Shown here: positions 13,101 through 64,000 of the stretch, piece by piece
Layout: each line of letters begins with the position of its first letter
Position numbering within the stretch: position 1 is the stretch's first letter
DNA from: Chrysomallon squamiferum
Taxonomy: Eukaryota > Mollusca > Gastropoda > Neomphalida > Peltospiridae
DNA: 64,000 bases
Reading direction: 5' to 3'
Assembly: GCA_012295275.1 (NCBI GenBank)
Contig: CM022665.1
Location: 9,329,476 to 9,393,475 of the forward strand
Made by a program: the position numbers and the translations under genes
The notes under the pieces: generated by a model
What the model was told of the DNA's origin: nothing
Databases searched by the model: none
Seen by the model: only the letters and a program-made list of their open reading frames with translations

Positions 13101-16100
13101 TGAATTAACAGAGAATCTGGTTAGTGTAAAGCATCTTTTGAAAGGTAAAAATAAATGTTTGTTTACAGTGTTCACTTTTCTATCTTTTGTTAATCAGTAG
13201 TGCTATTAAATTTTTAAATTAAATTAAAAAAACATTAGATTAATTAGTCACATTATGTGACTTGACCATAATTTTTAAGAATTTTATTTTATTTTTTTAT
13301 TTTTTTACTTACTTCTTCTAATGCAAACTTTAATTTCATTAATCTTTTAGTTACTGTAGATCATTTTACTGTGATTGCTAAATGAATTTAATATTACTGT
13401 ATTTCAGTATATAATTTGCTTGATTCATTCTGTTTGGTTGTATGTATCCATTCCTTGGTATTGATCTACTGTAAAAAGGTTAACCAGGCATTGTTGTGTT
13501 TAGAAGTACTTGAATCTCTGGCTGTATACAATACAGACTTGGTAAGTTGTAATTGTTTCATAACTAAGTTTATGAAAAAAAGAAAAAAGAAAAAGAAATA
13601 TCAGAGTTAATGAAATTGTAATAAAAAACTGTTAATCTCTTTAATAATATAAATAAACAAGATAAATAATCATGAGATATTTATCATGTAATATCCAATT
13701 ATTAACAGTCTATTTTCATTTAGTTCTTGGTATAATGTTATTAAGTGAGCTTTCAACTTTTGTAGATCAATGAAAATAATTTTTACTTTATTTTATAATA
13801 AGTCTGTTGTTTGTGTATTACAAAATAATTTATAGCTTTTATCTTTTTATCAAAATTATATAACTGATCCGTAACAGTTACATTATTTGGCATCCTTTAT
13901 GGTCTGGAATTATATTTTTGGAATGTAATTTTTCTCTAGAAATTTGGATCAAACCATTAAATAACCACTACTCCTGTTACTTTTATTATTATTTTTAAAT
14001 TAACATTTCAGACAAAACTTCATGCAAAGATGGGAATCCTAATTTATTCATCAGATTCAGTTGATGATACTGCAGATGCAGAAGTGCTAAAACTAATGGA
14101 TGTTGTTAACTTTAGCTTAGGTTTGTGTTACTACAAGTTAAACCAAAGTACATTGTGCCAGTCAGTGTTGAAGAAGATTAATTACAAACCATGGAAACAC
14201 CAGGCTGCTTACCTAATAGGTATTTAGTCACATTTATAATGTTTTCTGTTTTTCTCTTTTTATTATTACATTTTGAGAATTCTTTATCTTAAACGTTCAA
14301 GCCAGGAAGTGTTCAGAGTAGCCTGAGAATAGGATCAAAGTCTAAATAATAATTCCATTTGTATTTCTTATACATTTTTTGCAAATAGTCTGCAAGATTT
14401 TTTTTTATCTGTATATGTAATAATTTTGTTCATAAAATAAAGTTTGATGCAAAACAAATCAAGAACTTTAAGATTTGTTACATATTTTTGTCTAATAAAA
14501 TTTACATAGTTTTTCATTCAAAAATGATAATGATATATTGATAATAAAGATAAAATATTTAACAAGTAATACGTGTAACATAAGTCTAGAGTTCTTTTTA
14601 TATTTGTGTATGTATATAATAACTAGTGTTTCCCTTATGCAAGCAGCCCACCCTACCCCTTTTGGGGTCTGTCCTAGTGCAGTCAATTCAGAAAATGCCT
14701 GCCCACATTTGCCAAAATTCTCAAAAATTACAGCAATATTGCCTCAAATCCATCTATAATTTTTGTTGTCTGAAGGCATCAATTTGTCAAGCAAACAACA
14801 CTTTTTAGTGCCAATAAACAAACACAAACAACACTTTTTAGCACTAAGAAACAAATATGAACAATGTTTTTTAGCACCATCATATATTCATGAAAGCTTA
14901 ACTATGAGACCTTGTCATTTCTGGCCTTTTAATAATATGTATTATGAAAAAAATGCCCCTTTTTCAGTCAGGGAGAAACAGTAATAACTGTGTGTCTCAC
15001 TGTATACTAGTGATGGTACAAAATGTAACAGGAATAACTAATGTCAGCATTATTTATATCTTATTAACTTTAAAATATTTATAGCTTGAAATATGGCTAA
15101 TTGGTTAGTTTTGGTTTTTATTAATGCTAGAATCTCTAGTATAATAAATACTGGGTTAATTTAGTTAAAAGTAAAAACTCATGTTAAAATTATGAATTTT
15201 GTTTCACTCCGTCTGTTTATTATTATTGTTTATTTTTTATTATTAATTACTCTTTGTTTTTAGGTAGTTCATTACTTGCAGAAAATGTGTATTCTGAAGC
15301 ACTAGAATCTGTTACTGCAGTTTTACATGAGGACACAGACTGTACTATTGAATCTCAGCTTAGAGCCAGACTTTTCAATTTACAAGGCATCTGCTTCAGT
15401 AAGCAGGTAACATTTTATTTTAATTTCCTATTAAAATCAACCAAACATGTATGTTTATTTTAGTCTTTCTTTTGAAAGAGCAAAATATGTTGCATTCATA
15501 AATTCAGTGATTCAGTAATCTGGTAATATTTTAATTTCCTACCAAACATGTTTGTGTTACAGTTTCTTTTGAATGAGAAATAAAATATGATAAATTCATA
15601 ATATTATGAGATAATGTTTTCTTAAGTTCAGTTATATTGTGCCTTTTTAAGAACATTTTTAATAATTATATTGAATTTAGTTATGGCTGCTAAACCATGT
15701 ATCACATTGCTGTAACTTTCTTTGTTATTTTTTTTAAATTCCAGAGTAATATACCATCACTCTAAAACTGACAATTAAAATTGTATTTCTAAATAGTTGT
15801 ATTATTTTTCATAGAATTTTCATCACAGTGCTATTGCCGCATTTAGAGAGGCTCTTCAGGCAGATTTTACAGAACTTATTGCACTGTATAATGTTGGACT
15901 ACAGTATAGACATCTTGGCCTTGTAGATGAAGAATTAGAAGCATTGAATCTGTTGATCACAGTAAGCATTTGTTTTTATTATTTCCTTGGCTTGAATATA
16001 TACAACAACAAAAAAACAGCATTGATTGACCTATAATGATATAAACAAAGAGTAAAACTACACATAGTTATGTTTTAAGCAGTGTTGGAAATACACTAAA

Positions 16101-19100
16101 AAAAAAAAAACATCAGACACCAAGGCTGGCAAGAAAAAAAACATCAGACACCAAGGCTGGCAAGACTTAAAAGATTTAAGCTCTGTTGAATCATTGCCAG
16201 TCTAGATGCTGTACAACTGTTTCCAACTGTTTACAACACTATTTTAAGATTAAATATGAACTGTAATGAAAAGCCAACAATATGTCTAGATGCTGTACAA
16301 CTGTTTCCAACTGTTTACAACACTATTTTAAGATTAAATATGAACTATAATGAAAAGCCAACAATATGTCTAGATGCTGTACAACTGTTTACAACACTAT
16401 TTTAAATATTAAATATGAACTGTAATGAAAAGCCAACAATATGTCTAGATGCTGTACAACTGTTTCCAACTGTTTACAACACTATTTTAAGATTAAATAT
16501 GAACTGTAATGAGCCAACAATATGTCTCGATGCTGTACAACTGTTTCCAACACTATTTTAAGTATTAAATATGAACTGTAATGAAAAGCCAACAATATGT
16601 CTAAATGCTGTACAACTGTTTACAATGGTTTCCAACACTATTTTAAGTATTAAATATGAACTGTAATGAAAAGCCAACAATATGTCTCAAAGGTCATATT
16701 TTTGTTTAAATGTTTCCCATTTCTCATGACATTTCATTCATTAAATGTTTGGGATTTTTTGGTTTGTTTTTTAAATTCACTAATAGAAGGTTAGATCCTT
16801 TTTATTATTATTTAATCAGACTATCAAGTATCAAAATTTTATGATTTAATAATATAATGAAAATTGAAGAAATAAAAATAACAGACTTTCTGTATTGGTG
16901 TGTTGTTTTCTGGGTAATATTAATAGATTAAGTCACTTACATTTCTCTTTTATCTTAATTATTTTTATATTTCAGATTCTGGAAGACAGAGCTAATTCCA
17001 GCCAGACTGATTCTTCACAAATTTGCTTTAGTCTATTTTTCACTGACAATATTACCAGTGAGTCAGTATCTCTGCTTCAGGCCTTGTATGCTTTAGCCAG
17101 TCGCACCAAACAGCTAGAAAGGTCAGTTACTGAACATAAATTTCATTTCTTGTCACTATTTTTTATTGAAAAATGTGTTTAAAATCCCACCACCACAACC
17201 AAAAAAAAGAAAAGAAACAAAAACAACAACAACCCCATAAAAAGCTAAACAAAAGCAATATATTTTTTAATATATTAATTTTACCCTGTAGCCGTGAATA
17301 TATTTATAAGTGTGTTAATTTCCAACCTTATAAGTATGTTGGCAGCATCAGTTTGCTTTTACTATTTGCAGCCTCATAGATATTTTTAAAAAAGAATAAA
17401 ATAGTTGATTTTTAATTTGGAAGCACTTTTCTTTAAAATTTTGAAATTCAGTAAATCTGCAGAGCTTCATTAAATTTCTTGTTTGTTTATAAGATTTGTA
17501 ATTTTGACTGAAAATATCAGAATTATTATGTCCCCTTGATATCTTTCTTGAGTTTTGAATTCATGTGGATTTTTGAAATTCATGAAATCTACATAGCTAC
17601 TTAAATATTTTTGTTTTGAATGATTTAAATATCAACCAAAGTGTTCTATCAGTTTATAAGATTTGTAATTTTGACTGAATATAATAAAACAGCATTATTA
17701 TGTCCCCTTAATAAATGTCTTCAGTTTTTAATTCATGCTGATTTTCAAAATTCAAGATATCTACATAGTTTCTTGATAGTTCTTGTTTGTTTTAAAGGAT
17801 TTAAATATCAACTGAAGTGTTCCATCAGTTTTTACAATATTTGAAAATTACGATCTGCCCTTAACTGCTTTTTTGAGTTTTGAATTCATGCTGATTTTTT
17901 GTCATCTTTGAATAATGCCTTATTCTTATTGTCATAAGTAAACAACCTTTTTTATTGAAATAGTAATGTACCATCAGCAATCTAATTTTCCTCTGGTAAT
18001 CTGAGAAAAATGAATTACCTGTAATAATTAATTAGACATAAGTAGTCATGAGTGTTCATTATTTTTATGCACTGTGACAGTTAATAATCATTTTATAAAT
18101 CCAATTTCTACAAAATATTATTCCATAAATATTGTAGATTGAAATTATTTTTATCTGATTATCTGGTAATTTTATAATAATAGGTGAGAAATATCTGTAG
18201 TCCATTAATAAACATGTCAGGAATTTAGAAAACAGTACCTTTAAAAAACCCACTAATTTCAGACAAAGCAGTTTTAAGTTCTAATCAGGAAAGAAAACCA
18301 ATATATTAATACCTTTGTGCTGGGCATTTTGGGGATTTTCAGAATTGAAACAAGTTTCTGCTCATACTCGCCATGATTTTCTGAATGCTGGAGAAGCCCA
18401 TAGTAGATCAGTAATTGCCTACATCAGCACTGAAAGTCACATCACTAACGCGTGACAGAGATCATTGTCATTCAACACCCTGTCAGATATGTACTGCATT
18501 GCAGAGATCTCCGTCATTCAGCACCGAAAGTGTTAATATATAGCACGGAACATTCAACAAAATAAAATCTGTAATTTCTAACACATTCATTTTTCACACC
18601 TCACAAAGTCTTCCATAATTTTTTATTTTTTTTTGGCTGGAAGTTCATTTTTATATGAGAATGTTTAAAAAACAAACTTCAACTAATATGTTCCCATGCA
18701 GAGATTATATTACAATTTGTATTGTGCATATATCTTATCCAGATATATTTAGATAATTAAAATCATGATCAAATTGTTCATGGGTCTAGTTTTTCAGCAT
18801 TATTAAAGTGAATTTAAAACATTAAAATGAAAGTTATTACTGCCTCTAGATATTTTTTTAAAGATTTAATTATTGATGTCTGGTATGTTTCAAATAATAT
18901 ATGCAACACTATCATACTGTATAAACTTTCTGCCTCCATAAATTTTAACCAAAAAAAATGAAAAAGAAAAGAAAAGAAAGAGAGAGAACAAAGTAAACTT
19001 TAATTTCAGTAAGTAGTGTAATGTTTCCCTTCTGTATTTCAATTTTATGGTACTGGATATCATTACAGTCACTTTAATAAGGCCTTTGTTGTAATAAGGT

Positions 19101-23625: not shown

Positions 23626-26600
23626 TTTATTTTATTAATATTTTTTTTACCTTTATTGAACCAGGATTTTAAGGAACATAAATAATTTATAAAATTTAGG
23701 AGATGATATTAACAAATCCAAGGCTAGAATCAAGACTTTCTTATCTTACTTCACAAAAAGAAGTTTGTAAGCCTACCCTTCTTTTTCAGCTGGCAAAATC
23801 TGCACTTACTGCCTTAACTATAGGCCTGTATGTGTGGATACACATATCTGCATTTTCTCTTGTTAAATGGTTTGATTGAAACATTCTCCATACATCTATG
23901 TTGTTATGTGAATTATAACTAAATTTATTGTTTTGCTGCAGGCATTTTACTGACATTTAAATTAAGCTATGTGACATCATGTGCCTTAGGCAAGGATACT
24001 TGTACATCACCTGTCAGGCATAATTAATGCTTTGTTGGACCTCCAGCATACTCATTTATTGCCCTAATTTTCTCTCAGGGAATAATGTAATAAATGTATC
24101 AACTACTTAATAAAATGATACCACAGAATATTTATATGTGAAATTCCTTTAAATAAAAAAGCCCAAACATCTTCTTATGGATTAAGAGGTACTTGCAGAT
24201 TAGTATTAAAATGTAATAATAGACTGCAGAATCAGTTTTGATTAATGACTGTACTGAGAGCTTTTTCCCATAGTGCTTACCAGCCAGTAATCCATGACAG
24301 GTTTATCAAAGACTGGTTTGTACATTCACGTGTACAGTAAATTGCATATAATATGTCACTTGCTACTAATAAGTAAGAATACTCATGCAGTTTATTTTAG
24401 TATTACCTGTCATTAAATGTAAAAAAAACCAGACAACCTCCCCAAAAATAATAATAAACTCCCTCCCCCCCAAACCCCCCAAAAAAACCCCAGACATATT
24501 TCATACTAATTATGTTCATATTTTTTATTAAACAATTGTTTATTTATTTATAATATAATCGGCAATAAATATCCAGGTATACAACAGTCATAACACTTAA
24601 TATTTTGATAAAACTCATGATGTAAAATGAAAATAAATCTTTAGGAAAATACACAGTTTCTGGACTAATGTGTGACTAATAGCTTTTGGAATTACAATTG
24701 TTTAGCCGGTTGTTTACCAACAACAAAGTTAGCGTGACATTTGAAAGCAGAACAAACCATGAAATAAATGTGGTGAATAATAAACAACTATATATATATA
24801 TATATATAGCACAGTAAGGAAGAACTGAAAAGCCTGATTAGTCATCTGAAAAAGAAAGAAAAAAGTCATTATTTATTAATTTTATTTTTATAAATAAAAT
24901 TATTTAGAATATGAATCATGATATATTTTACACTTTTTAAAAATATAACAGTGCTTCTGCATTTAATCACTATCTTCTGACTTTTTAATCGACTACTGAA
25001 AAACTTATTTATTATGACAATGGTACACTTTTTAAAGAATTAACAAATAACAATAATAATAATAATAATCATAATATATTAGAACATTTCTTTGTTAAAC
25101 TGGTTAGAATAATAAGAATAACTTGACTGTTGGTAAAAGTAACAACTTGGGTAGCAATTTTGCCTAGGTTAGCTTGTTGAAATCTAGTGTTTATATAGCA
25201 GATATTCTCATTCAGTTTTGAGTTCATTCCTTTCTCACTAATCTAGTGTTTCATAAACAGGACATTGATCTGACTCACAGTCCAACTTTACTATTTGTTT
25301 CCCCAGGAAAAGAAGCTTGAATTATAGTGATTAAATCAGTTTAGTTCATTTCCATTTAATCAAAACCAATTATTTGTACCTGTTCTGTCAATACTGAAAC
25401 TTTATATATTTATAACAGTTTTGCAATTATTGTCTTCAGTCAATGCCTCAGTTAATTAAAGAAAATTGCTATTTCTTTTTTCTTTTTTTTTTTCATCCAT
25501 GGTCCTGTTTATTTCTTGAGAAGTATATATTTTTTTAAGGTTTGGGATAATATCACTAAGCAATAGTATTTATTTAAGAATTACACAGTTAAAGAAAATA
25601 CTAAACCTTTTGTTTTAGACATCTTTTTTTTTTTTTTAGAATGAGCTTAGTAATATTAATCTTTGATGCTTTGTTTTTGAGATTCTGGTCTGAGTTATTT
25701 CATGTTTCAGATTTAATGAAGCTTCAGAAAAATATTTAGATCTTCTGGCAGTAAAAAGTGACCTTTTGTCACTAAGTCTGAAGGTAAATATTATTACTGT
25801 CTGAATTTTAAAAATGTTTCTTAACTTTTTGTATTATTTCTATATTTATTTTTATCTCAGTTTTTAGTTTTAATATTTTATTTTTATTATATTTATTAAT
25901 ATATATATAAAAGAAAAAATATATATATAGATTATTTATTTTATTTTTTCTTTGACTGTAAATAAATATTTATTTGACCTAATTAGATGAGAAATGCAAC
26001 CTAATTATTTTAGTCAGAGTCCATTGCAAATCTAAAAATAAATTACACAAACTGTCTGTTTCTTCAGATTTTATATATTTTATAATAAACATCTCTGAAA
26101 AATAAATAAATAAATAAATAAATTAATATACATATGTATATGTGGGTATGGATGGGTATGTGTTATGTCACTACTGGAATTAATTAATTTTTATTTTATT
26201 TTAGGGAAATGAAACAAATTTGATAAAATTACCAGATATGGTGACTATCTACACTGAATGTGCTTACTGCCTTTTAAAATCAGGTCAGTTCAAGGAATGT
26301 ATAATTATTTGCACCAAAGCTCTGGAAACATACACTTCAACTGTTATGACTGATTCGATGGTGGTTTTTTCAGAACCACTGGAAGACAGTCTTTTTGCAG
26401 ATGATAAAAATGTTCTACAAGAGAACACAGAAAATAAATCTGTCTGGTCACGAAAGAGACAAAGGTCAGAATCTTGTGTTCATTCTGAAGATGTCCAGTG
26501 GAAGGAAATGAAACAGTATATGACGTTGATCTTTTATAAAACTGATGCTCTGTATCAGATGAAAGATTTTAAATCTGCTGCAGATATTCTTCACAGGTAC

Positions 26601-27655
26601 ATAATTATTTTGACGTCATAACAAACATATTTTTTAAACGTATTTTAAATTGATTTATTTTCAGTTATAATATATCAAGATCTTTTAAGACATATGACAC
26701 AATATAAAAACAAAACATTCAGAAAACATCAATGAGGATTTAAAATTTATTTTCTTATGGCAAGATATTATTTTAAATTCATGAAAATGTTCAGAAAACA
26801 TTAAACTATAGCATAATTATGTGTTTTATTTTTGAACTTAAGAATGTTGCTTAAAACTGCCAAACAGGCATTCAAAACATATAGCAATTCATCAATAACA
26901 GTTACATTTAACAGATGTCTAGGTATTTGTTGTATCTAATAATATCAATAAAGTCATACAAAGGTGATGGGTCTTTTTTATGGTAATAGAGTGTATACCA
27001 AAACTCTAAATGTTTTTTTTAATGCTAAATGCATTTACCTGGTTCCAAGATCTCTTGCACACATGTGAAAACAGTCAGTGCTGAGGATGTATATAAAAAT
27101 GATGTAATTTTACCCAATATATGTTCATAACTTGAAACTTCAGCCTAGGAACTGATAAAACCCACATAAATAATAAGGATGCAGTTTACTGTATAATATT
27201 TTGTTTCACTATTTTAGAGCTGTAGTTGGTCAAAACTGTTGATAGCAAACCAACATATTAGGCAGGTCAATTATATAATTATTTTTTTTTACACTGAGTT
27301 TAATAAAAAATTAATTGAAATTGTTAGTTCTATAGAAAAACTTCAAGACAGCTCTGGAGAGATTTTATCAGACAAAGACAGTATAAGTTTAACAGAAGTT
27401 TCTGCTGTGAAGAAACAGAGAATTGTTGATGGACAAATTATAAACCCAGGTAAATAACTGAATGTTTTTTATTTAAAGTTAAATTAATATTCTGTTATAA
27501 ATAGCTTTACTAGATGATTTCCAGCATAAAAGGAACATGTCATAATTAACAGTGCTAGGTGATATGGTTATTTATTTCAAAAACATGGATGATATTTTAT
27601 CTGTTTATTTTTTTATTGACACAAAAATTACATTTTTGTTTTTTTCATGATGCAG

Positions 27656-34554: not shown

Positions 34555-37050
34555 TAAGAGTTGTTACACTGAAGTAAAATAAAACTGCTATTTATTGATG
34601 ATGGTTTTGTGCAGTTTATGAATTTATCATGAATTAAAAATGTTACACCTACATGGTTCATATGCAAATAAAATAAGTATTTAGTCTGAATACACCGGCT
34701 GTTTTGTTAGGTCAAATTCTAGGTATGTAGAAATTAAGTAAAATTGTAATCAGTATAAACCATGTAGGAATATAGTAATAGTTCATACTTGAATTGGGCT
34801 TGAAAATGGTATAGCATCAGACACAACTTTCTATTCTGAAATATTGCACCTGGTTAATCTAATAAACTTCCATCATCCAAGATAGCAAACATGTTTTTCC
34901 TCTTGGAAAATACATACCTTAAATTTTGAGGTCCATTAACATAAGCACTGCACATAGAGAACATTTATTTTATTAACATTCTTATATTACATTTTGTAAA
35001 TATTCTAAAATTAATCCTAATTATATAAGGATAGCTCTCAGTAATAAAGGCGGTGTTATCTTTCATAGACTAATTACATAATAAATAGTTGATTGTTACA
35101 TTTTATTTGGAACTTGTTTTTTTCCATATTTTGTTATAAGCTGTCTAGAAATGTTTGTATCATAAATATATACAAATATTTTGAATGGTATTGTGCTAAA
35201 CTTTTCTTTTTCTTTTTAATTATTATTTGTATTTTCAGGCATCACCCATTGACAAAGAGACAAGAGGACCATGTCCACTGTGTCAGCAATGGTTTATGAT
35301 AGCCTACCTTATGGCTGAAAACCAGGAAGGGGTCGTCTTCAAGGTTTTTACTGTCCAGGCTGACTGTCCTCCAAAGCTTTTTGTGGACAAAGGTTGGAGC
35401 AAGACATTTCCGGTAGTCATTGCAAAAAAGCCTTGTCGCAACAAAGCAGGACATGACTTGGCAGATGAGATGTTTGACACATTTGAAGAACTGGAGAAAT
35501 TCTTTGAGGGCATTAATCGATCATGTCCTGAGTTGAAACGCCACAATGCTCCCAATGCCAATGCTGTTCTTGAAGTAGCAGATATTTATGCTGTGAGTAT
35601 CTTTTATCTAATGTGTAAAATGTTATTCAGGTTACAAAATTCATTTGGCATAGTTATGAACATGGTTCATTACCAAATGTTTAAAATACATATAATTGCA
35701 TATATCACTTACGCTACATGGATTAGATTGGTTATGCTTATACAAAACTAATAAACTTATTTATGTTCATGTTGAACAAAAAAACATTAAAAATTATTTT
35801 CTTCAGCCACCCCTCTATATTTCTTCAGCAGTGATAAAAAGCCTGATTATATAGGTAAACATGATTGAGTTAAATAAAACAATTATTGACATATAGATAT
35901 TATGAACTGTAATGTTATACTTAAAATTCATATTTTTGACACCAGCCATTTTCTTTGCCAGTTTCACAAAGAATAAAAAAAAAATGTTCATATGAAGCAC
36001 ATCAGTCCCACATAGTTGTCACTAAATCTTGGTATTTCAGTGTTCTACAGCTATTAATTACATTTAAACAATTTGATAATGTCATTCAGTATAAAAATGT
36101 ATATTAATAATAAGGTACATAGTGCTTATAAAAGTAGTAGTAAAGCTTTAGGTTAAAAAATTTCAGGAAGAATTATTTTCAAAGTCATTTCCAGGTTGGA
36201 AATGGAAACTGTTTTGGATTTCAGTTTTTCTGAATTTCGTTTCTTCTATTTTTAAAAACAGGTTTTCTGTGGTTTCCTGAAGGGATCCAAGAAACTAACT
36301 CAGCTGGAAAGGAAACTTGAAGAATTGAATGATTACTTAGAATCAAATGAAGGCAAATTTCTTGTAGATGATGTCTTGAGTTTTGCCGACTGTCACCTTT
36401 TACCACGACTGCAGCATCTCAGAGTGGCTGCTGAAGTGAGCAATATAATTCTGAATTTCCTTTTTTTATTATTTCTTTTTTATTTATATATATATTTATA
36501 TATACAATCAAAATTATAAAAATTATGCTAGTTATATTTGTTTTTTATTGTTTATAGTACAACATTGGGGGGGGTTATCATTTGCTTTGGTATAAAAATA
36601 CTAATTTTAAAAATAGTTTACCTGAATTTATTGGTTAAACAGTCTGTGGCTCTTGTGCCTGTTGTACTTTTGTAAGTATAGTAGATTTTAAGCTAATTGT
36701 ATTTTTTTTTTTCCTAGAAATACTGCAACTATCAAATTCCATCCAAGTTCACTGCCTTGTGGAAATATTTGGATGATGCCTACCATCAGCCAGCCTTTAT
36801 TAACACATTGCCATCAGATCAGGATATTGTGTACAATTATGAAAAGAAAACTGCTTTTCCTCTTCCAAAGCGTGGCAACCCAACACTACAAGCTTTCACT
36901 TACACAAAAGATATCCCAGAGGAAGTCAAAGCAGTTTTAAATAAGAAGACTGATGATCAAGAAGTAATGGAAAGTAATGGAGAGTCTGCATTAAATGAAA
37001 ATGAAAGTAGCATAAATGAAGATTCCACAGTTAATGATAGCCCAGAGTAA
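33613..37050 (+). CDS. Chloride intracellular channel (CLIC) protein
   Basis: Four phase-0 exons, 33613-33708, 35239-35592, 36262-36435 and 36718-37050 (TAA 37048-37050), encode 318 residues. The thioredoxin-fold N domain carries GPCPLCQQWFM (Cys44-Pro-Leu-Cys47), the position of the redox cysteine in CLICs and the start of the putative membrane segment. The all-helical C domain has FLVDDVLSFADCHLLPRLQ and YCNYQIPSKFTALWKYLDDAY, which align with human CLIC LADCNLLPKL and IPKEMTGIWRYLTNAY. The protein is longer than vertebrate CLICs of about 240 residues because of an acidic, Ser/Asn-rich C-terminal tail after about residue 262. Family members switch between a soluble GST-like form and a membrane form and act in tubulogenesis and redox enzymology. 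The Met at 33613 is preferred to an upstream in-frame Met at 33526 because it follows AAA and leads directly into a charged N-terminus. The family match is certain; the subtype (EXC-4/Clic-like) is not assigned. Confidence 0.95.
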
Positions 37051-40388: not shown

Positions 40389-42445
40389 TCATTTTCCTTT
40401 TTCCTTAAAATAATCAGCTAAAAAGAACCAAAAAAAAAGAGAGAACATTCAGTTAAGTATCTATTAAACAATTTTGTTAACTGCAAAATAATGAACATGA
40501 AAATTGAAGAAAGAAATGCATGAAACACAGAAAAAAGAAAACTAAGATCAAGATAAAAATATTAATTTCACACTGAAAAAAAAAGAAAATAGATTACAAA
40601 TCATATTTCTGAGACAGTCTTCAAAGAAAAGAGTAAGTTATCTTTTATGCTGGTTAATAATGCTGGTTGACAACCAGAGAAGGATTATGGCTGTAATGGA
40701 AAATAATGCAATAGACAATCTGAAAACTACTGATCCTGCAGCTTATCATGACCAACACCATTCTTTTAACCAAAGGACTACTGTTTTCATTTTGTCTTAT
40801 AAAATAATGTTAAAAGTGTATTTTCTGGTATGGAAGTTACTGATATGAAAACAAAAATAATATATATATATATATATATATACCTAATTTTTCAACTGCC
40901 TCAACACATATACCAGCAAACATGTTTTCCGTATATGTAGCAACAAGAAGCAGAGTATTGGTTTTAACTAGCACTAGGCCATTCTTGTTCTGAAAAATAT
41001 AAAATGGAATTAGAACAATAACTTATGTCAAACTAACAGAATAACCAGTCAGATATTGCACAATGTAATTTTGAGTTACAGCCTATTATGCAGTCCGGTG
41101 CATCAATAGATCAATTTTTTTTCCACCATAAATAGGTTTGAAAACATCTTGACCCTCATGTCTATATATATATTTTGCTGAAATCGGTCAATAAAACATG
41201 TCAAAATCTTAATGAAATTATGCTACACACTTATTTTCCTAAGATTCATCTAAAATCTCTGACATCACACCCCTATACATTACATATCACTGATCTCTAG
41301 AATGTGGTTTATCTTATTCCAACAAAACTTGAGTTTTGATAATTTTCACCATGTGACTGGTTATCCTATGTTGCTACACAATTACAGTAATTTGTTATGA
41401 CCTAAAATAAATAAGAACAGCATGAAATAAAAAAACAGCTTCATCTAATTATTACAGTAAACTTTGGTAAACTGTCAGCTCTTAAGGCATTCTGATATGT
41501 AAATATTATAATAAAGTTATATTTTTCACCCTGACAAAGCTAACAAAAAGCTTTTTAATTCCATGTAGTTGTAATGAAAAACATTTGATCTCATGAAACT
41601 GGTATTAACAGTTAAAAACAGAAATTATTGTTAATAATAATATGATTCATTGGTGCTGAACATCCTATTATTTGTATAAGTTAATATAACACTGACAGTT
41701 ATGCTTACACATTTTGCATATATTGAATTCCTGTCAGCTCGTACACATTTGTACTGTTGGTCTGAAAAATAGATTCCTTCCTCACGTGTCTGTGGAGGAT
41801 TTCTAAAAGCATCCAATAACATCTGGACTTGATCTGGATACAACTGAAAATGTAAATAATAAAGCATGTTCACATAAGAAATTAGTGATAATAATCATCA
41901 AAAGAAGGCCCAAACTAATATTATTACCAGCTTATTTAATTCTGATTACATCACTGTGTATAATAGTATTTTTTAAAAATCATCTTATCTTTTTTCATAT
42001 TCAATGTGTCTAACATTTATAGTCATTGTAAAATTAAGCAGGGTAGTTAAGGTGTTTAAGAAAACAACATGAAGCAGATGCAATGTTTATCATTCACAGA
42101 ATCATGGTTTTTTTTGCTAAAGTTTTTTAGAGTACACAGATACATCTTAATGTTACCCAACACTATCAAAATTAAATAATCTGGATTCAAATGTTTGATT
42201 TCAGATTTTAATATTTAGTGCCTGAATAAAAATAAAAATAAAATATATATTGCTGTTTTAGAGGACAAGATCAAATATTCAAAATAACATACAGTAAAAC
42301 CTAGAGAACTGGCTCTAATGCTGCAGTCTTTGCAGTAGATGATGGCACACTGCTGTACATGGTCAGTGGAAATCAAAGCATCGTGCAGCAAATTTTGAAG
42401 CTGGTTCATTTTGACAGCATCCTGTGGGGGGGGAACACAAATAAA

Positions 42446-43391: not shown

Positions 43392-43513
43392 CAAACAATT
43401 AAATTAAATAAATAAATAAAATGATTAAGGCACATGATTGTTGTTAATATAAAACTCACCGGAACTCCCTGAATTTTATAATTGGGATTGTTCTGAAGAT
43501 CTAAATCTGCCAT
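40389..43513 (-). CDS. PFN4: Profilin-4, conventional short form
   Basis: Five minus-strand exons: 43460-43513 (first, ATG 43511-43513), 42293-42421, 41709-41843, 40884-40989 and 40389-40417 (TGA 40389-40391), giving 150 residues. From the Met of [12 protein letters not shown] onward the 128-residue core matches human profilin-4 (129 aa) from end to end: [45 protein letters not shown] and the last exon DYFKEKGK. Twenty-two extra residues precede the core, 18 of them from the first exon. Profilin-4 is a divergent, testis-enriched profilin linked in mammals to sperm-head shaping and phosphoinositide binding rather than strong actin binding. The tiny last exon (29 bp) was found by its acceptor and its match to the family ending. 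An upstream mini-exon array can replace the first exon (see array entry). The acceptor at 42421 uses a C8 tract. Confidence 0.93.
43340..43392. repeat. AAT microsatellite in profilin-4 intron
   Basis: About 15 AAT units just downstream of the first-exon donor; several shorter AAT runs lie between 43240 and 43340. Confidence 0.95.
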
Positions 43514-44452
43514 TTTTATACAATATTTCAGTTTGAAAATTAAAATAAAGGAATTGACTTCTCTGTATATGTAAGTACAGAAATTTTATATATACTGATA
43601 TATCTGTCAGTATAACAAGTAGTTCACTACATACAGTATGATAACACTGATCAAGTCTTTTCAGTAGCTCGGTAACACAAAACTGCAGACTGGGAAACAC
43701 AGAGTTCAACAGAGGTAAACCAATTCAAAGAATTATTCAATAGATTTTGGTAAATCAAGCATATTGTGTGAACACCAGCTGACATTAAAACTGTTGCCAA
43801 ACCTAAACTGTGATTAAAGATACTTAACATCCAATATCCATTACAGTAACACAATGCTGTCTAAATAGCTGATTGAATGCCTATTGTTATCTGCATGATT
43901 GCACTTTGATAACTTTCATGCACACTGATTATGGATAATATACTGAGGAGTGATTAAACGAAAAAATATTTTCTCAGTCTTTTTAAAATCAGAAGACATT
44001 ACTATAAATAACAGCAACAAAAAATAATAATAATAAAAAAAAAAATTAAAAAATGATAATAATAATAGAATAAAAAAAAAAAAAAAAAAACCCAACAAAA
44101 TAACACAAATAATTAGTTACAGTCAGAACTTGAAAATAACATACCAAATCCTAATTAGTATTTATTATAAAATTTTATATACTGAAAAAAAAATAACCCA
44201 GAAAGAAATAGAACCTCTAAAAGAAAATAAATTATCTCATACACACCCACAAACACAAAAGAAAAACTTAACAAAATAAAATGGTGTCAAAAGAGCCAAA
44301 CATAATTATTTCAGTATATTACTGAATCAGATCAGTGAAAATAATACTTTTTTCTTCTTTTTTTCTGGTTAATTTTGACTAATATATGATTTTTGAAAAT
44401 AATCCATCACTGAGGTGGATACAAATTTTTGAATCAAATTAGATCTGTTCTA

Positions 44453-44540: not shown

Positions 44541-45466
44541 AATAGAAAATTAAAATATCACTTAATTTATGAAATTAACCAGAAATTTAATTACCAAGTA
44601 AAAATGTTAGAACCAACTAACAGAAACAACAGTCAAACTTTTTTGCAAACAACACTAAATATCATGCTTGGTGTTCTTTGCAAACTCATATTTAAAGTTT
44701 TCAAATTCAGTTAAACTATACCTACATTTTTTATATACAGATTGATTCTACCACAACTAGAACACATGTTTTTGCTTCTATCAAACTTCAAAATTAGTCA
44801 GAAAAGTGTCTGGAATCTTTAGTCTGTCATAAATTTAAAAAACACAGGCAACTAATATTTTGTAGTATAGACAAGGAAATATAAACAATGTCAAACAGAA
44901 CAAAACTTTACAAAGTTGTTTACAAACAAAAGGTTGATGTGACACAATAATCAACACAATCACACACACACACACATGCACGCATGCGCATGCACACACA
45001 CACACACACACAAAAACCCCAAAAATATCCCAAAATAAATGAAACAGATGAAAAACAGATTTAAAGCAGACATAGAATTATGACACTAACTGATGAGAGT
45101 TTTTGGGGTTTTTTAAATAATGAATTTGTATTGTGGCATTACTGTTAGTGATGTGTTTTTTTAATTACACTGAAATGATAATAAACATATCACTTTATAC
45201 AATGATGTGAACCAAAAACACTTTTTCCTAAACTGAAAATAATTTTCATTTCACAATCATGCCTTTGAAAGATTGCCCAGAAATCAAAACAAAATTTACT
45301 TTTATTAGTTTAACATTTATTGTTTGAATTCTTCTTAATCTAGAAAATGTAATGGAGATACAAAGCAAGAAACCCATTAACTAAACTACATGACAACAGA
45401 TATATACTTGGTAATAATTATTAAAACTAATATTGGAAAAGACAAAGTTTTTGTAAAAATACTTAC

Positions 45467-46391
45467 GTCAGAAAATGTCTCACTATGGGCCTCAGGTAAA
45501 GCCTTGGTTCTTGAATTAGGCTGGAAAATCATTTACAGATAATATTTATTCACATAAATTAATTTTTTGAAGTTGTCTGAAAGTTTAACTTTGTGATGCT
45601 GAAAACTATACATTTCTGAATAATGATACATATTATTATTACTCTGTACAAGAAGTTAAACAAAAACAAAAAAAGAAAAAATGATGATAATAATAAAAAA
45701 TATATATATAAATAAATAAACTAATTAATAATAATAATATAAAAAAATTTTTAAACATTTTTTGTAATTTTTTATTATTATTATTATTTTTTTTAAATTA
45801 TACATTCAACAGTTTTGTTAATTTATACACTAAAAATTTCTAACACTGAAAAATATAACTGTCTAATAGTAAAAAATTATAAGTTATATTTTCTGTCATA
45901 AAATGTCCTGCTAAGGTGATCAAAGAATAAAACCAGACAAAATTGGATCCAAAACCAATGTACTTATGAACCATAACAGCACTGAAACCAGTGACATTAA
46001 CACTTTATATTTTATTATAAAAAATACTTACTTTAGCTCTACTCTTAGTTGTTTCAGGCTGAACTGTGGTATCTAAAGTATCCTTTAATTGTAAAATAAC
46101 ATTTTAATATTAGATTTATTAAGTAGATCATGTGTTAAATCCTATCATTCTGTAAAATAATTATTTCTTAATAAAGTATTTGATTTTTATTATTTAATAT
46201 CAGTTTTATTAAATGTATCATATGCATTCAAAATATAATCATAACTAGAGATCAGACAGGTATAATACTTGAAAAGACACCTTGGACCATTTTAGAAAAT
46301 TTGTATTGACTGAAAAATTATAAATTAATTGCATGAATTCATCTATGTCAAATTAATAAATAAAAATTAATATTGTTTTCATACTTTAATT

Positions 46392-46446
<55 letters not shown>

Positions 46447-49400
46447 AAGCAAAAGTAATTAATTTGAACATTTGTTGTATATGACCAGTTACAAAAAAAA
46501 AAAAAAAAAAAAATCATGAACATAGAATAACATGAATTTTTGGCATGGAACACTTACTGATGATTTGTCACTATTAAGTTCAGATGAATCAGGCTGAAAA
46601 GTAACATTTTAATAATCATAGCTGTGTTTATTAATATGAGCCAACTAAAATCTTGCTTTGTTGTAAAATAAATACTGTGCAAGTACACATTAAGACATAG
46701 GCTACTTTCCAACATTTAATTATGACTTTATTATTAATATTTTAAGTTAAACTAGTGTTCAGATCCACGAAAAATTAGGTCACTTGAATAATTTTGGATG
46801 AAAAGTATTGTGATTGTTTTACTTAAGAATATTCCTATCTTACTGAAAATATAAAATCAAATAAACAAGATTCAGCTTTTGAAATCCACTGATTCCTAGA
46901 GAGAGTAACAAAATAATTGACTTAAAGCTGCTGAGATAGAGTTATAAAAACAAAAATAGAACTGTTTGTAAGAAATACTTACTATTGATGTGGGAGGAGC
47001 CTCAGATATTGAAGTAGCCTGAAAAGTAACATTTCATTAATAATTGTATAGAGTCTTCATGCCACTTTATCCATTATTTGTCATTTTTAATTGCATTAAA
47101 AAAAGAAGAAGAACGAACTAAAGAAATTAACTTTTAAAAATATTTGTGTATGCTTGAGTGACTAGAAATACTTTTGTAAAATCTTCTTTAATATTAAATT
47201 CATTACAAAGGATTCTTGATGAATGTTTGTGTCATGTGTGTGGGTGGGTGGGTGTCTGTGTGCATACATGCAAACTTACTGCAGATCGAGAATAAGACTT
47301 GATAAGTGATTCAGTCTGAAAAACAATATTTTAATAACAACTATGCAGATTTATACAATAAATTATAAAAATTTCAAGACTGTGTAACATTAGAACACAC
47401 CAAAGTAAAGTTTTATTTATTGTTACATATATATATAATTCTCCATATAATTCTCCAATCTTTTAAAAATTATATACTTTATAAAATCAAATACTTGACA
47501 ATATTTACAACAACTAATGTTTAATGAAAGCCCAAGTCCTTAATTAACTAATAGAATTTGTGAATCAAAGCACTTACTATAGCTTTTGTGGAAACATTGG
47601 CTCCTAAACCAGACTGAAAAACAACATTTCAGTAAGAACACATAAGTTTTGTAAACAATAAAAATATCTATCCACAATACAAATCAATAAAACATTTCTT
47701 AAATTACCATAAATTAGCAAATATTTTTATTATTGTAAGAAGGACAAATAATATAAAATGAAGTTAATGAAAATATTCAGTTAAAACAAATAGTTTTAAA
47801 AAGCAATATAAATATGTTACAATATTTGTTTGATTATTAACACAGGCAGAACATTACAGAAATACATGCACTTACTTTAGTGATTGAGTGAGACTTTGAT
47901 CTTAACCCAGTCTGAAAAATAACATTTCAGTTTTATTTCTCCGCACTGATAATAACTAAACAGACCCATCAATTTTATAAATTAAAAAAAAAAAAAAAAT
48001 CTATATATTATAAATAATAAAATATCTATATAACCACATATACAAATACATTTATACAGATCAATTAGGTATTTCTTACATTATCTCGTTAGCTTTTGAA
48101 GGAACTGCCTGTAGATATAAACAATTATTTTTATTATTATAAACTTTGAAGGACCACCAAAACAAAACAATAAAGAAATAAAGAAAGAAAGAAAGAAAGA
48201 AAGAAAAAAATGTTACTCTAAAATGTACAATCATTAACAATAATGTGATTACAAGTATGTCATAATATTTTCAGTAATCAGTGATTAATTTAAATATTTC
48301 TTTATTAACTGAGGTTGAACTTGTTTATCAAAATGCTTACTTTAGGTTGAGAGTGGGCCTTGATACCTGATCCAGCCTGAAAAATATTTCATTAATAACT
48401 AAAGCAAACAAACACAACAACAAAAATCTCTTCAGTTTTATAAATAATAAAATATCTATCAACATGCATATACAAACACCTGAATGAGTAAGACATTGCT
48501 TGAGGATATTTACAAATATTTACATTGTTATAAATTTAACAAAAACCAAGAAACAAACAAATAATAATAATAAAAAAAAACATAATTTAAGTATGACACA
48601 ATATTTTCAGTAATCAATGATTAAATTAAGTATAATATGCCATGACCTACTGAGGTGGAACTTGTGTATCAGAATACTTACTTTAATGTTTGAATGAAAC
48701 CTGATACCCGAAACAGCCTGAAAAATATTCAATATTATTATTTTTGTTTTTTGTTAAAAAAAAGCATCAATTTTATAAATAACAAAATATCTACACCTAT
48801 ATAAACCAATCAGGTATTTGTAAAGTTAAACTGAGCATATTTACAAATGTTTGTGTTATTAAAAGGTTAATAAAGACCACAATAAATAAATAAATAAATA
48901 AATAATAAAAATAAAAAGAAAGAAAACCAAAAAATAAAAATATATTGAAACAGTTTACAAAAATAACATGCTGATAATTAAAACTATTTAATAATATTTT
49001 TTGTAATCAATGATTAAGTAATAATTTTATGATTAACAAAAACTGAACATATGAAAGCACTTACTGTGGTTTGAGGGTGAACCTTTGTACCTGGTCCAGA
49101 CTGGAAAAAAAAGAAAAGAAAAAGAAAGATCAAGGAAAAGTACTAAATTAAAATATACTATTAAAAAATGATAATAATAATAATAATAATAAAAAAATAA
49201 CAATAATGAAATTATGAACAGGTAATTAAACTCTCATGATATTTGCATAAATAAATCTAAATTTCTTGATTAATTTAGTGGAATTTGTGTGGAATCAAAG
49301 CACCTACTTTAATATGAGAAGGAGTCTTGGCACTTGAACCAGGCTGAAAAATAACATTTCAATAATAACCCCACACACCTAATTTTTGAATGTAAAAAAC

Positions 49401-50588
49401 CAAAAACAAAACAAAAAACAAATTAAAAAGTATAAACATTTGACAAATTAATAAATATTTTGTACAAGAGTATAAACAAATTATTTCGTCAAATACTTTA
49501 TTAAAAGATCTGAAATTATACCTACCTCTCATTTTTATTGATATTAATTATTATTAATTTGGACACAAAAGGGGATAAAAAAAAAAAAAGAAAGGCAAAG
49601 AGAATGATCAAGAAAAAGAACTAAATTAAAAATATGCTATCAAAAAAAAAAAAATATATATATATATATAATAATAATAATGAAATTATGAACAGTAATT
49701 AAACTGTCATGTTTCGTTAAATAAATATAAATTTCTTGATTAATTTAGATTGAATATCTATGGAATAAAAGCACTTACTTTAATATGAGGATGAACCTTG
49801 ATTCCCGAACCAGTCTGAAAAATAACATTTCAATAATAATCCTACAGACCTTATTTTCTTTAGTTCTTTCTAAGTTTCTGGATGTAAAATAAACAATTTA
49901 AAAATAATAAAAAACAAAATTTAAAAATTTAAAAAAATTAAAACATTAATAGAAATTAATAAATATTTTGTACAAGAATATAAACAAATTATTTTGACAA
50001 ATACTTTATTAAAATACCTGAAATTATACTTGACTACTTTTTATTGATATAATTTATTATTAATTTGGACAAACAAAAAGAACAGAAAAATGATGTTTCA
50101 GAAATATTCTTCTCTAAATATATATATGCATGTGATTAGAACTACTTATTAATAGTACTTACAAAATTCAGTCAAGGAGTATTTTTTAATTAGTGAAAAT
50201 TCAATATATATTTTACTGTATTACCAGTCTTTTAACTTGATTTAATTTTTAATTAATGGCAATATAACATTATTGTACTTTATCATTAGATTCAAATTAA
50301 ACTATAACCTGAAAATAAAAAAAAATTAATTTTGGTTATTTGTTTGTACAACCATAAATAAAGATGTAACCAATAAAATCAGTGGCAATTGCCAGTAGCC
50401 TTCATCTTTACTAAAAAAAAAATTAAAACATGTCTCCAAAGTGATTGTGCTAAATTATTTATTTCAATGTAGAGAATTCCCTTCCTACTCCAACATTATT
50501 AATACAACAGTAAAAGAAACAACAGAAGAGTCTTTAACAAAGAATTACTTACATGGGTTTTATTAACTGGACTCCCAGGTGATTTAGT
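45467..50588 (-). CDS. Tandem mini-exon array, alternative 5' part of profilin-4
   Basis: Thirteen phase-0 minus-strand exons without stops, in transcription order: 50553-50588 TKSPGSPVNKTH; 49779-49814 TGSGIKVHPHIK; 49308-49343 PGSSAKTPSHIK; 49065-49100 SGPGTKVHPQTT; 48682-48717 AVSGIRFHSNIK; 48341-48376 AGSGIKAHSQPK; 47876-47911 TGLRSKSHSITK; 47578-47613 SGLGANVSTKAI; 47280-47315 TESLIKSYSRSA; 46983-47018 ATSISEAPPTSI; 46558-46593 PDSSELNSDKSS; 46032-46082 DTLDTTVQPETTKSRAK; 45467-45520 PNSRTKALPEAHSETFSD. Eleven are exactly 36 bp. Each has an AG acceptor and a GTAAG-type donor (GTAGGT at 49308), and the acceptor side keeps an ATGTTATTTTTCAG-like block, so exon plus flanking intron was duplicated. 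The last exon joins in frame to 42421 (profilin core), bypassing 43460-43513. The peptide is rich in Ser, Lys, His, Pro and Gly and is probably disordered. The start exon is not resolved; ATG|GTAAAA at 51810-51812 is one candidate. Confidence 0.8.
46394..46442. repeat. CA dinucleotide microsatellite
   Basis: About 24 CA units in an array intron. Another CA run interrupted by GCATGCGCATGC lies at 44961-45011. Confidence 0.95.
48080..48108 (-). pseudogene. Degenerate array unit (29 bp, frame-breaking)
   Basis: The sequence lies in register within the array, between the exons at 47876 and 48341, with a CTACAG acceptor and a GTAAGA donor. It is 29 bp, not 36, so inclusion would shift the frame. 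It starts GCAGTTCCTTCAAAAG, which resembles the A-V/S-K pattern of its neighbours. It is probably a decayed unit skipped in the mRNA. Use as a switch exon that ends translation is an untested alternative. Confidence 0.55.
48179..48207. repeat. GAAA microsatellite
   Basis: About seven AAAG/GAAA units in an array intron; a similar GAAA run occurs at 52420-52460. Confidence 0.9.
49485..50090. repeat. Duplicated intron segments within the mini-exon array
   Basis: About 95 bp at 49488-49570 (TATAAACAAATTATTTCG, then CAAATACTTTATTAAAA, CTGAAATTATAC and TTATTATTAATTTGGACA) recurs with few changes at 49980-50075. The offset (about 490 bp) is close to the spacing between the exons at 49308 and 49779 (471 bp). 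Whole exon-plus-intron blocks were therefore duplicated here, probably the most recent expansion of the array. Confidence 0.8.
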
Positions 50589-50709: not shown

Positions 50710-53340
50710 GGCTTAATTTTTTTTTTTTTTGGAGTGTGTTATTTTCAAATGATGTAGGAAGATAATTAAATGAAATGTTGTCACTTTTCACTAGCAGATA
50801 CGGAGCTTGTTCTATGGATCTCTATATCCGGAGTGGTTATCTAAAAACCCCACACTTCTTGGCAGTGCAATGGTAAATATTTTAACATTCTGTATAATAC
50901 TAAGTAACATACATTTATTCTGGTAAATGTAACATCATGGATTTTTCAGTAACAAATATCTAATTCAATCCCTATTAAAAGGTTTAATTCTAATTTCTGT
51001 GATATTATAAGAAAGGCACTGAAAAATGCTGCACTTCGTATACTAACTGCACCACACTTATTAGACTGTATTGGGTTTACACAAATCTGAATTCCATTTG
51101 ACATGTTTAACCAAGGAAATAGTGGGAATCTTAAACAAGCTTGTCCTAGAAAATACACTGCCTACATTTTTGCAGTAAGAAACTACTTCTCAGATGATCT
51201 CAATAAATGTGACTGTTTTTACATCTCTGATTTGCTGCATATAGCCAGTGTATATTTTTAATTAGTGTTCATGAAACAACTGAATATGAAATAAAATTTA
51301 TATTTAATTCTGCAAATACAAAAGTATAGTTTCAAGGGTGGCACGAGGCATGATGGTATGGGTGCTATATATGGGCTGATATGTTATGTAATATACTGTT
51401 ACAGCATTTATGGGATCATGTAATATTTATGTCATGAAGCTGTGTACCGCTTAAAAGTTACATGTAATGTACTAATGCAGCTAATTAGTTATAATAACAA
51501 ATATTTTCATTATTATTATTATTTTTATTTTATATCATTATACGCTGTTTAATATGTCATTTTAATATTTGTTACATTTTCGTTTTATAAAAAGGCACAT
51601 ATGTGTGTTTACAAATACACGCACACATACACACAGTATGAAAGACACAGAGGGTGACGGTGAGAAAGAAAATGAGCGTATAAATAGTTTAACTGAATGT
51701 GTATACAAGAACAAGTTTGGAAAGTTAATAAAATATGAATATATACGATAAGTACTATTAATAAAAATGTATTGGTACATACTAGACACAAAGCTTGCTT
51801 TTATTTTACCATCTGTTAATAATCTTCACATATATATATGTTACATTACATACAAACAAAGTGTGTATTGTTGCAATGCAGTCTGTTATCTTTCGTTTGA
51901 TTAATTGATCGCCTACTAAGCTACGTGATTGATTTTGCTGGAGAATAATTTCAATCATTTTAATTTAAAGCCATTTCTCCTAGTATTTGTTTATTATGCT
52001 AGCAGTATACGAAAAAAATGCAAAATAAAAGCATTTCATTGTCAATACAGTGATATATGTAAGAATTGTAAGGTGCTACGATAAACTGCAATGATAAATG
52101 CTTTGTGACACTAATATGAAATGATAGATCCCCGTTGTCACGCGGAAGTTTGGCAACAACACCGACTGTGAGTATTTATAGCAAAACTTCAATTATGGAC
52201 TTAAAAAGTAAAATGATATTTTCTTGGTGCAGAATAAACGAAGCATTACCTGTCAGTTTTGTGTTTTGTTTTGATTTTTCTCACAAAACCAAACAACTAT
52301 TTACATCCCAAAATATAAACAAAATAATTGTCTTTGTCAGCCATATATTTTGATAATTGGCCTTAAATTTAATCACGTGACACCCCCAAATTACAAGCAT
52401 CAACATTATTTGTGTCAAAAAGAAAGAAAGAAAGAAAGAAAAGAAAAGAAAAGAAGAGAAAGTTAGAAAAATGAAAGATTAAAGGAAAACAAGTAAATCA
52501 CTTTATTTACCATTATTCCCAATTTTTAAAATCTGATAATTTTTAACCTAACAATAATTATATATATACTAAAATAATTGAATTATTAGTAGAAATAATT
52601 ACTAATAAATTCTTTCTCCACACACACACACACACACACACACACATCCATATGAATTATATCGCATACAAATACAAAGAAAAATAAATTTTTAAAAAGT
52701 GAATGCCTTACAAATTTCTGAACAATTTATGTTAACATAAAACTGTAATAAATATTCAGGAAGCGATATACATGAATATGTTATGTTTTTAAAATTAAAT
52801 ATTGAACCATAACGTTTTTTAATTATTCCAAAATTCAGCATTTCATTTACTGTTAATAAACAAACAAACAAACAAAAAAATAAATATTTTCCAAATAATA
52901 ATAATAATAATAATAAATAATATAACAATAATAATAAGAATTATTACCTTTATTAAAAGAAGGATATGTAATATAAAATGTAATTTATAATATACCAGTT
53001 GCAAGAACGAGAAAAATGGTTAGTACAGAAAAGTGTGAACAAAACAAATATCGAAAGAAAAATAAACAATCACTTAAAATAATAAAGTATATGATTTATA
53101 CTGATTTCAGATAATTAGCAATTAACTGAAGTAGCTTTTTGAAAAATCTTACCAACACATACTGTACTATTTAAAAATAATGAAAAGAGAATTATTGAAA
53201 AGAAACCAATAAAATAAATTAATATTAAGCTGTTACCATGTTGCTGGGTTTTTCTTTCAGTCTTTCTTTCTTTCTTTTTTTTTCTTCTAAATAATAATAA
53301 TTATTTTATGATTATTCTTTTGTTGTTGTTGTTCAATAAT
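50589..53340. other. Upstream region of the mini-exon array, start exon unresolved
   Basis: If the array is transcribed, its first exon and promoter lie in this stretch. It has a TA run (50670-50704) and two small patches unlike the AT-rich surroundings: 52130-52165 (CpGs, an ETS-like CGGAAGT and a GGCAAC half-site) and an E-box CACGTG at 52374-52379. ATG|GT junctions that could supply an initiator in phase 0 occur at 51810-51812 and near 53237. Neither has supporting homology. A segment near 50990-51290 is less AT-rich and may be a repeat remnant, but I could not classify it. Confidence 0.4.
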
Positions 53341-53521: not shown

Positions 53522-53792
53522 ATGACATCCCTGTTATGTGTGAAACATTTAGGAGGTAATGTACAAGTTCATAAGCCAAAGGAAGCTGTGCCAGTCGAAG
53601 AAGATGATTCGTACAAACACGTAAGTGATTCACAGTTGAAACGGTTTACACCCAGGAATATGTTAACTTGAATAAAATTTGTTAGCGTTGATAAAATGCT
53701 TCAGAAAGTTTGTTTTCTTCAAATGAAATGTATCTATCAAACATGAATTATAACAAACATCAGTTGTATACGTTACTTACACATTTATTTAA

Positions 53793-62900: not shown

Positions 62901-63766
62901 AAGAGCATTCAGTTAGATTGTAGAGTTTCTATTTTTCAGAACTGATTTTCTTTCTTTCATATTTATCTTGTCATTTCCTAATAATATATTAGTACTCTGC
63001 AGAATATCTGAAAGTCTGATGTTAATGATTCAAGCCATTTTTATTGTGTCATTATAAAATAGTCTTTTTGTTGTGAATTAATATTTATAAACTAACTGTA
63101 TTTAACTCTTTATGGACTTCATGAACTTAAAATATCAATAATAATTTTTGTTATTGGCCACTGAAGTTATAAAATGTATTTTCAACTTTCTAGAATGTAA
63201 AACATATGACCATTTCATGTTGTTGACAGCTGATCCAATAGTACTATTCAATTTTACCTAATAAAAATAATAAATTTAGTGACTTTTAAAATATACCTTT
63301 GAATTTTACACAGAATATAATTTATGTTATGTTTGCCTGTATTGTATGTACTGTGTCATCACACTGTTGCAGAAGTTTTTAATAATGAATGTTAAAATGA
63401 TATCAAATCATACATCACATTATGACAAAATTTTATGTTATTAAATGTCTCAGTCACAGGTGGGTAACAGTGTCTGTATCCCTAAAAGAGCCTGCAGAAA
63501 ACAGAATTTTATTTTGACAGAATAGATAAACACTGTCAGCTTTGTTTAGCCATGATTTCACAAGACATTAAACTAAATATAATATTCATTATGTTTCTGC
63601 AGCAAATATGAAAATACCTCACAAAAGGGACTTTAATATTTGTATTGAAGAAGAAAAACACGATTCTTATTCCAGAAAAATAACCATGTTAACAATTTAT
63701 ATTCACTGAATATAAACACACATTTCTTTTTTCTTATATGAACAGAAAAAAACACAAATTTCATTA
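59907..63766. other. Intergenic region right of FAM228, no gene seen
   Basis: AT-rich sequence with a T run (61806-61826) and an A run (61880-61903) that could pair, GT-rich stretches near 60740-60800, an A run at 62501-62520 and scattered AAATAAAT tracts. The right end should contain the 3' UTR of the minus-strand gene that begins beyond 64000. No family resemblance was found in any short open frame. Confidence 0.6.
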
Positions 63767-64000
63767 TCAGACCTGTGCTTCACACAGGTTAATGTACAGA
63801 TCGCTATCATACGAAACAGTGGCTGTCGATTCTTTTTCTTGGCTGGGAGGGTCAAAAAGGTCAACTCTAACATTGTCCGTTTTTTTACTTTTCTTTGTAT
63901 CATTTGTTTTAACAGAGTTACTGTCCTTGCTGCTAGACTTTTCTGTGTTGTTTGAAAAAGTGCTGTCCGAGGGTCCATCTGTTATTGTTTCTGAAAACTC
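63767..64000 (-). CDS. C-terminal end of an unidentified protein (partial)
   Basis: A minus-strand frame is open from the window edge (64000) to TGA 63767-63769, giving 77 residues. It is rich in Ser, Thr, Asn, Asp and Lys, with [20 protein letters not shown] and the ending [13 protein letters not shown]. Its GC content and codon use are higher than in the flanking AT-rich DNA, and it ends abruptly in AT-rich sequence, as a last coding exon does. The composition suggests a disordered cytoplasmic tail or linker. I do not recognise the family. An AG at 63991-63992 on the minus strand might be the real exon start. The overlapping frame at 63703-63978 is judged to be a shadow. Confidence 0.5.

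Follow-up and report, generated by a model that had tools for sequence, protein, structure and literature searches.

Proteins that carry one repeat per exon can grow by tandem exon duplication, and the PEVK region of titin is an example of such a protein. The subject of this report is an array of 13 mini-exons on the minus strand at 45467–50588 of a 64,000-nucleotide (nt) stretch of the Chrysomallon squamiferum genome (NCBI GenBank assembly GCA_012295275.1, contig CM022665.1, positions 9,329,476 to 9,393,475), which is referred to below as the window. A comparable layout is described for the micro-exon genes of schistosomes, which, according to one account (PMC10526429), consist of 10–20 very short exons with lengths mostly divisible by three, separated by introns of 0.1–5 kb, and are marked by difficult annotation, highly variable proteins and splice variants. 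The same account gives 35 such genes in Schistosoma mansoni, with exons mostly of 15 nt, a constant N-terminal signal peptide and verified isoforms. The array in the window is a real, non-random and locus-specific tandem mini-exon array, and with a probability of roughly 0.55 we read it as the body of a separate minus-strand gene that is protein-coding, lineage-restricted and fast-evolving, located between a plus-strand neighbour (53522) and the profilin-4 gene.

The schistosome micro-exon genes are the closest known layout, and the array is not a member of them. Set beside that account, the likeness lies in 13–14 exons of 30–54 nt with introns of 207–738 nt, and all 13 of the exons located are short, in phase and a multiple of three in length (36, 51 and 54 nt). 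Unlike the genes described there, the locus contains eleven copies of a single 36-nt exon, it is a single locus in a mollusc, and it is known from genomic sequence only; moreover, where that account reports a signal peptide, here no first coding exon was located. Membership by descent or by sequence was rejected, since the genome is that of a mollusc and a search of a protein collection with the array peptide yielded 54 candidates, none of them at E<=1. With the one-repeat-per-exon proteins, of the titin PEVK kind, the array shares symmetric exons that were copied together with their introns and a low-complexity predicted product, whereas its units differ from theirs in being very short and identical in length, and in having no homologue that the search could find. 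As far as titles and the openings of abstracts in the open-licence literature reveal, no like array was found in a mollusc.

The array is composed of eleven exons of 36 nt, one of 51 nt and one of 54 nt, all in phase 0 and free of stops, an arrangement proposed by the earlier sequence-only reading and confirmed by splice scans and by the joined reading frame. In minus-strand order, the first 36-nt exon is at 50553–50588 (TKSPGSPVNKTH), splice-bounded and open in frame 0, and it is followed by those at 49779–49814 (TGSGIKVHPHIK), whose introns are homologous to those of the next unit, 49308–49343 (PGSSAKTPSHIK), 49065–49100 (SGPGTKVHPQTT), 48682–48717 (AVSGIRFHSNIK), 48341–48376 (AGSGIKAHSQPK), 47876–47911 (TGLRSKSHSITK), 47578–47613 (SGLGANVSTKAI), 47280–47315 (TESLIKSYSRSA), 46983–47018 (ATSISEAPPTSI) and 46558–46593 (PDSSELNSDKSS). 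The 51-nt exon (46032–46082, DTLDTTVQPETTKSRAK) and the 54-nt exon (45467–45520, PNSRTKALPEAHSETFSD) complete the series. All of these, with the exception of the 51-nt exon, were recovered both by a scan with a unit matrix and by a generic splice scan, and the units at 49308, 48682 and 48341 also entered the intron comparison described below. An AG precedes every array exon, and the donors of the eleven 36-nt exons are GTAAGT in nine cases, GTAGGT in one and GTAAGC in one, so the splice signals are as had been claimed apart from the poor acceptor of the 51-nt exon (ttaaag). This exon is supported by the joined open frame; it is absent from the unit-matrix list, the generic scan offers forms of 27 and 32 nt rather than 51 nt, and an inner acceptor would reduce it to 27 nt with the frame kept. 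The introns that separate the 13 exons measure 207–738 nt, which replaces the earlier lower figure of about 165 bp, and the proposed unit pattern xGSGIKxHxxxK turned out to be weaker than stated, as it is matched in full by 2 of the 11 units, with K6, H8 and K12 together present in 3 of the 11.

The generic scan used a donor score of at least 5, a pyrimidine-rich YAG acceptor and exon lengths of 15–90 nt. Of the splice-bounded candidates that it found in the interval, 11 measure 36 nt exactly, a length that 1000 dinucleotide shuffles yielded 0.166 times on average and never more than twice. Outside the interval, both strands of the window together gave 6 candidates of this length. The unit matrix was trained on the eleven 36-nt units and hence recovers them by construction; they score 29–51 and the 54-nt exon scores 20.0, and the window contains three other matches, at 20.0 (on the plus strand, 120 nt long and with stops inside), 16.6 and 12.6. 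No 36-nt unit was found by this matrix in the 30 kb that adjoin the window on its right, where two overlapping plus-strand matches of 92 and 124 nt were rejected as not unit-like. The intron between the exons at 48341 and 47876 also contains a 29-nt splice-bounded segment (48080–48108, minus strand), with AG before it and GTAAGA after it. Its length would break the frame and it does not fit the unit matrix; it was set aside, and it may be a cryptic exon, a decayed unit or a product of chance.

When the introns of adjacent units are aligned, the scores, which counted masked bases as matches, are far higher than in shuffled controls, and the divergence figures, which were corrected for masking, amount to 11% and 19% for the nearest pairs around 49779/49308 and to 21% and 27% around 48682/48341. 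Because the introns are homologous between units, it is whole exon–intron units that were duplicated in tandem, several times, at one locus, and adjacent units are homologous in exon and intron alike, which is what defines a tandem duplicated exon array. In the species' own assembly (404,604,130 bases in 22 contigs), the DNA of one unit matched only itself and its sister unit, a search that more diverged copies could escape. Genome-wide, exact matches to the 3' splice motif TGAAATGTTATTTTTCAGNCT number three, and all lie inside the array. The array peptide matched only its own two longer exons in this genome, which is a weak test because exons of 12 residues are too short for it.

Joined in order, the 13 exons give 501 nt in which frame 0 contains no stop, as compared to 4 in frame 1, 24 in frame 2 and 10–19 in the antisense frames. 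Shuffled sequences made of the same letters contain about 9.4–9.5 stops per frame, and zero stops occur in about 5e-5 to 1e-4 of the shuffles. The encoded peptide of 167 residues is rich in serine (32), threonine (20), lysine (18) and proline (14), has an isoelectric point of 10.1 and is probably disordered, to judge by its sequence; it has no match in Pfam, and an Rfam search gave no match either.

The contrast between exons and introns points to constraint on the length and frame of the exons. Four intron comparisons revealed 30 indel events in 785 aligned bases, or 0.196 indels per substitution, whereas in the two tandem pairs 23 of 72 exon positions are substituted and no indel is present. 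At the intron rate, the exons should have gained 4.5 indels when the rate is taken per substitution (P 0.011) and 2.75 when it is taken per base (P 0.064); the counts depend on gap costs and on a masking of simple repeats only. A tree-length version of this test gave P about 1e-12, a value on which we place no weight because it takes no account of saturation and relatedness. Since the introns gained indels and the exons none, exon length and frame appear to be constrained. The residues of the units, in turn, appear free to drift. The exons of the tandem pairs differ at 10/36 and 13/36 positions, and their homologous introns at 77/462 and 76/323, which is an excess in the exons of both pairs that does not reach significance as a sign of diversifying selection (P 0.11 and 0.11). 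When all 55 exon pairs are pooled, the proportions of synonymous and nonsynonymous differences are 0.451 (pS) and 0.527 (pN), exon identity is highest at the third codon position (0.548 versus 0.426 and 0.503), and the mean identity per exon column among the eleven copies is 0.49, where 0.30 would be expected at random. The sequence-only reading had taken the exact 36-bp length as a sign of selection, and this was right in direction for length and frame, while selection on the residues found no support.

A candidate terminal coding exon was identified on the minus strand at 44794–44823, 0.6 kb past the last array exon, by an acceptor scan that sought a stop; it is in frame and would encode TKDSRHFSD followed by the stop. 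It was picked from 25 acceptor-like sites in this stretch for its phase, its first codon and the resemblance of its end: it starts with ACT, in keeping with the NCT that opens every one of the eleven units, and its final HFSD resembles the TFSD of the preceding exon. ATTAAA at 44591 and AATAAA at 44166 are located downstream of it. At the opposite side, the region 50.6–63.8 kb offers eight start-exon candidates (an ATG, at least 5 codons and a phase-0 donor) with codon scores of -9.2 to +1.0, and none of them is convincing up to 63.8 kb, even when relaxed donors are included. The nearest (ATG at 50910, donor at 50854) was not accepted, as it has a weak donor and a codon score of -6.0. Pfam found no match in the minus-strand translations of all three frames over 50.6–64 kb, apart from a sub-cut-off MFS match at the right edge. 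If the gene is coding and not trans-spliced, its start exon should lie between 50.6 and 63.7 kb, the upper limit being set because the right-hand minus-strand gene ends near 63765, and perhaps this exon is short or unusual.

Every coding model suffers above all from the gap at the start exon, and several further results also weigh against a coding gene. Frame 0 of the array contains no methionine codon, the peptide found no relative in the protein collection, and purifying selection on the unit residues was not seen between copies, given that pN is about equal to pS and exons diverge at least as much as introns. Of the three sense frames, frame 0 has the best codon usage over the 176 codons that include the candidate terminal exon (+14.6 bits versus -20.2 and -29.0); codon usage is a weak measure alone, because two antisense frames score higher still when stops are ignored (+40.2 and +33.6 bits). 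Its training set comprised about 518 codons of neighbouring genes and is small and slightly noisy, as three of the seven plus-strand pieces were dropped for want of an open frame and one that was used, 15815–15980, extends into an intron. An alternative that accommodates much of this would make the exons part of a non-coding RNA or of a 5' untranslated leader, their open frame being a by-product of the recent duplication of an open 36-nt seed. The single ATG found in any frame of the 501 nt, where 7.0 are expected (P 0.005), is indeed leader-like, and the missing start exon, the lack of homologues in the protein search and exons no more conserved than their introns are consistent with it as well. 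Copies that have diverged to the mean identity given above without a stop or an indel, while their introns changed length, are harder to reconcile with such an origin, as is the fact that frame 0 is the only stop-free frame, and we consider this explanation rather unlikely. A formerly coding array that has been decaying since its first exon was lost would equally explain the absent start, the unconstrained drift of the residues and the poor acceptor of the 51-nt exon. However, all 13 exons are still open in frame, and in eleven of them the length is exact and the splice sites are good, features that a decaying array should have begun to lose; this makes decay very unlikely.

The position of the array beside profilin-4 had been taken to mean that it forms an N-terminal extension of that protein, a claim that the analysis left unsupported. 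Profilin-4 has its own first coding exon on the minus strand (43460–43513), which resembles the N-termini of other animals and is situated 2 kb downstream of the array, between it and profilin exon 2, and coding exons 2–5 (42293–42421, 41709–41843, 40884–40989 and 40389–40417, minus strand) give a full-length profilin-4 match. The joined protein is 79% identical to the profilin-4 of Littorina and Babylonia over the full length; 137 proteins were found at E<=0.001 among 155 candidates, and among the matches listed, Gigantopelta aegis provides the closest by identity (89%, covering 85% of the query). The profilin-4 gene is thus complete without the array. N-termini of the G-x-P/D..KMNQL type, the slash marking the join, are present in 17 of the 124 retrieved proteins, with molluscs, annelids, a nemertean, a bryozoan and a tunicate among them. 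Other molluscan profilin-4 proteins have different N-termini at the same D..KMNQL join, such as the VV/D type in 5 of the 124, and because several molluscan N-termini share one join point, alternative first exons or promoters probably exist in this family.

These variable N-termini lend some plausibility to the idea that transcripts from a distal promoter join the array to profilin-4 by a splice between 45467 and 42421, which would bypass the proximal first exon and give the protein an alternative N-terminal extension whose length exon skipping would change in 12-residue steps. The array and profilin-4 are neighbours on the same strand and this splice is phase-compatible (phase 0), but a conserved and sufficient first exon intervenes, the stop-bearing exon at 44794–44823 fits the end of the array, and the model, too, lacks a start exon. 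A query of 299 residues joining array and profilin matched 21 of 656 candidate proteins, none of which is extended in an array-like manner; the search could miss a fast-evolving extension because it requires shared five-residue words and a target length of 0.55–1.75 times the query. In none of the 124 proteins does the profilin core have more than 106 residues in front of it (the value of an amphioxus model), and the next longest extension has 65, whereas the array would add 167. When the 59 extensions of at least 15 residues were compared with the array, 1 in 200 shuffles attained the best score, a chance-level result for 59 comparisons. Similarly, tblastn with 13 alternative or extended N-termini identified only profilin exons 1 and 2, and the other minus-strand matches in 42.4–63.9 kb remained at chance level (E>=0.12). 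A profilin-4 fusion was therefore rejected as the leading explanation, given the gene's own conserved first exon and the lack of an array-like extension in the retrieved profilins, and we regard such an isoform as unlikely; an in-phase neighbour is no evidence of fusion. Among the retrieved proteins, one from a crane joins the quinone oxidoreductase PIG3 to a profilin, probably through annotation read-through of adjacent genes.

A 36-nt phase-0 exon and its intron were thus duplicated in tandem several times, with exon lengths kept exact and introns changed. Under the favoured reading of a separate coding gene, the exons, joined in order, would yield about 176 codons of a basic and probably disordered tail rich in serine, threonine, lysine, proline and histidine, ending in TKDSRHFSD and the stop at 44794, while the missing exon would supply the start codon and may also encode a targeting signal. 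Such a tail may act as a modular linker or low-complexity region of variable length and composition that places a weak demand on single residues, and it could vary through copy-number change in evolution and through frame-neutral exon skipping in the animal. A more specific version, which we regard as possible yet doubtful, holds that this is a micro-exon gene that arose independently in a free-living mollusc, where selection would act on length and frame rather than on residues, and combinatorial exon skipping would create many variants, possibly in the male germ line. In the mouse, profilin-4 is reported to act in manchette and acrosome formation (PMC9481974); that the array has a role in the germ line is speculation, based on its position beside profilin-4. 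If the array is transcribed, the micro-exon gene layout would have arisen outside the parasitic flatworms. The array would also offer a clean case of drifting residues in an exon whose length and frame are held exactly, and genes of such a layout can be missed by automatic gene models.

The right-hand minus-strand gene enters the window with its 3' end, which includes a long serine- and lysine-rich tail (63765–64000, continuing beyond the window). It has an MFS match just under the Pfam cut-off (32.1 bits, cut-off 33.4, E 7e-8), and we take it to be monocarboxylate-transporter-like. The array was rejected as a part of this gene, since the last exon of the latter ends with its own stops near 63765. 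On the plus strand, a divergent gene begins about 3 kb beyond the 5' end of the array, with a first coding exon, read by eye, at 53522–53620; it is presumably FAM228-like, an assignment to which Pfam gave no support, as it returned no match for this gene. Further to the left, an 84-bp tandem repeat of about 6 copies (16200–16687) is located in a region of plus-strand exons. Weak TPR matches are present in one of these exons (26205–26621), and the exon at 35200–35751 (plus strand) carries a CLIC-like N-terminal match just under the Pfam cut-off (21.6 bits, cut-off 23.5, E 2.6e-4).

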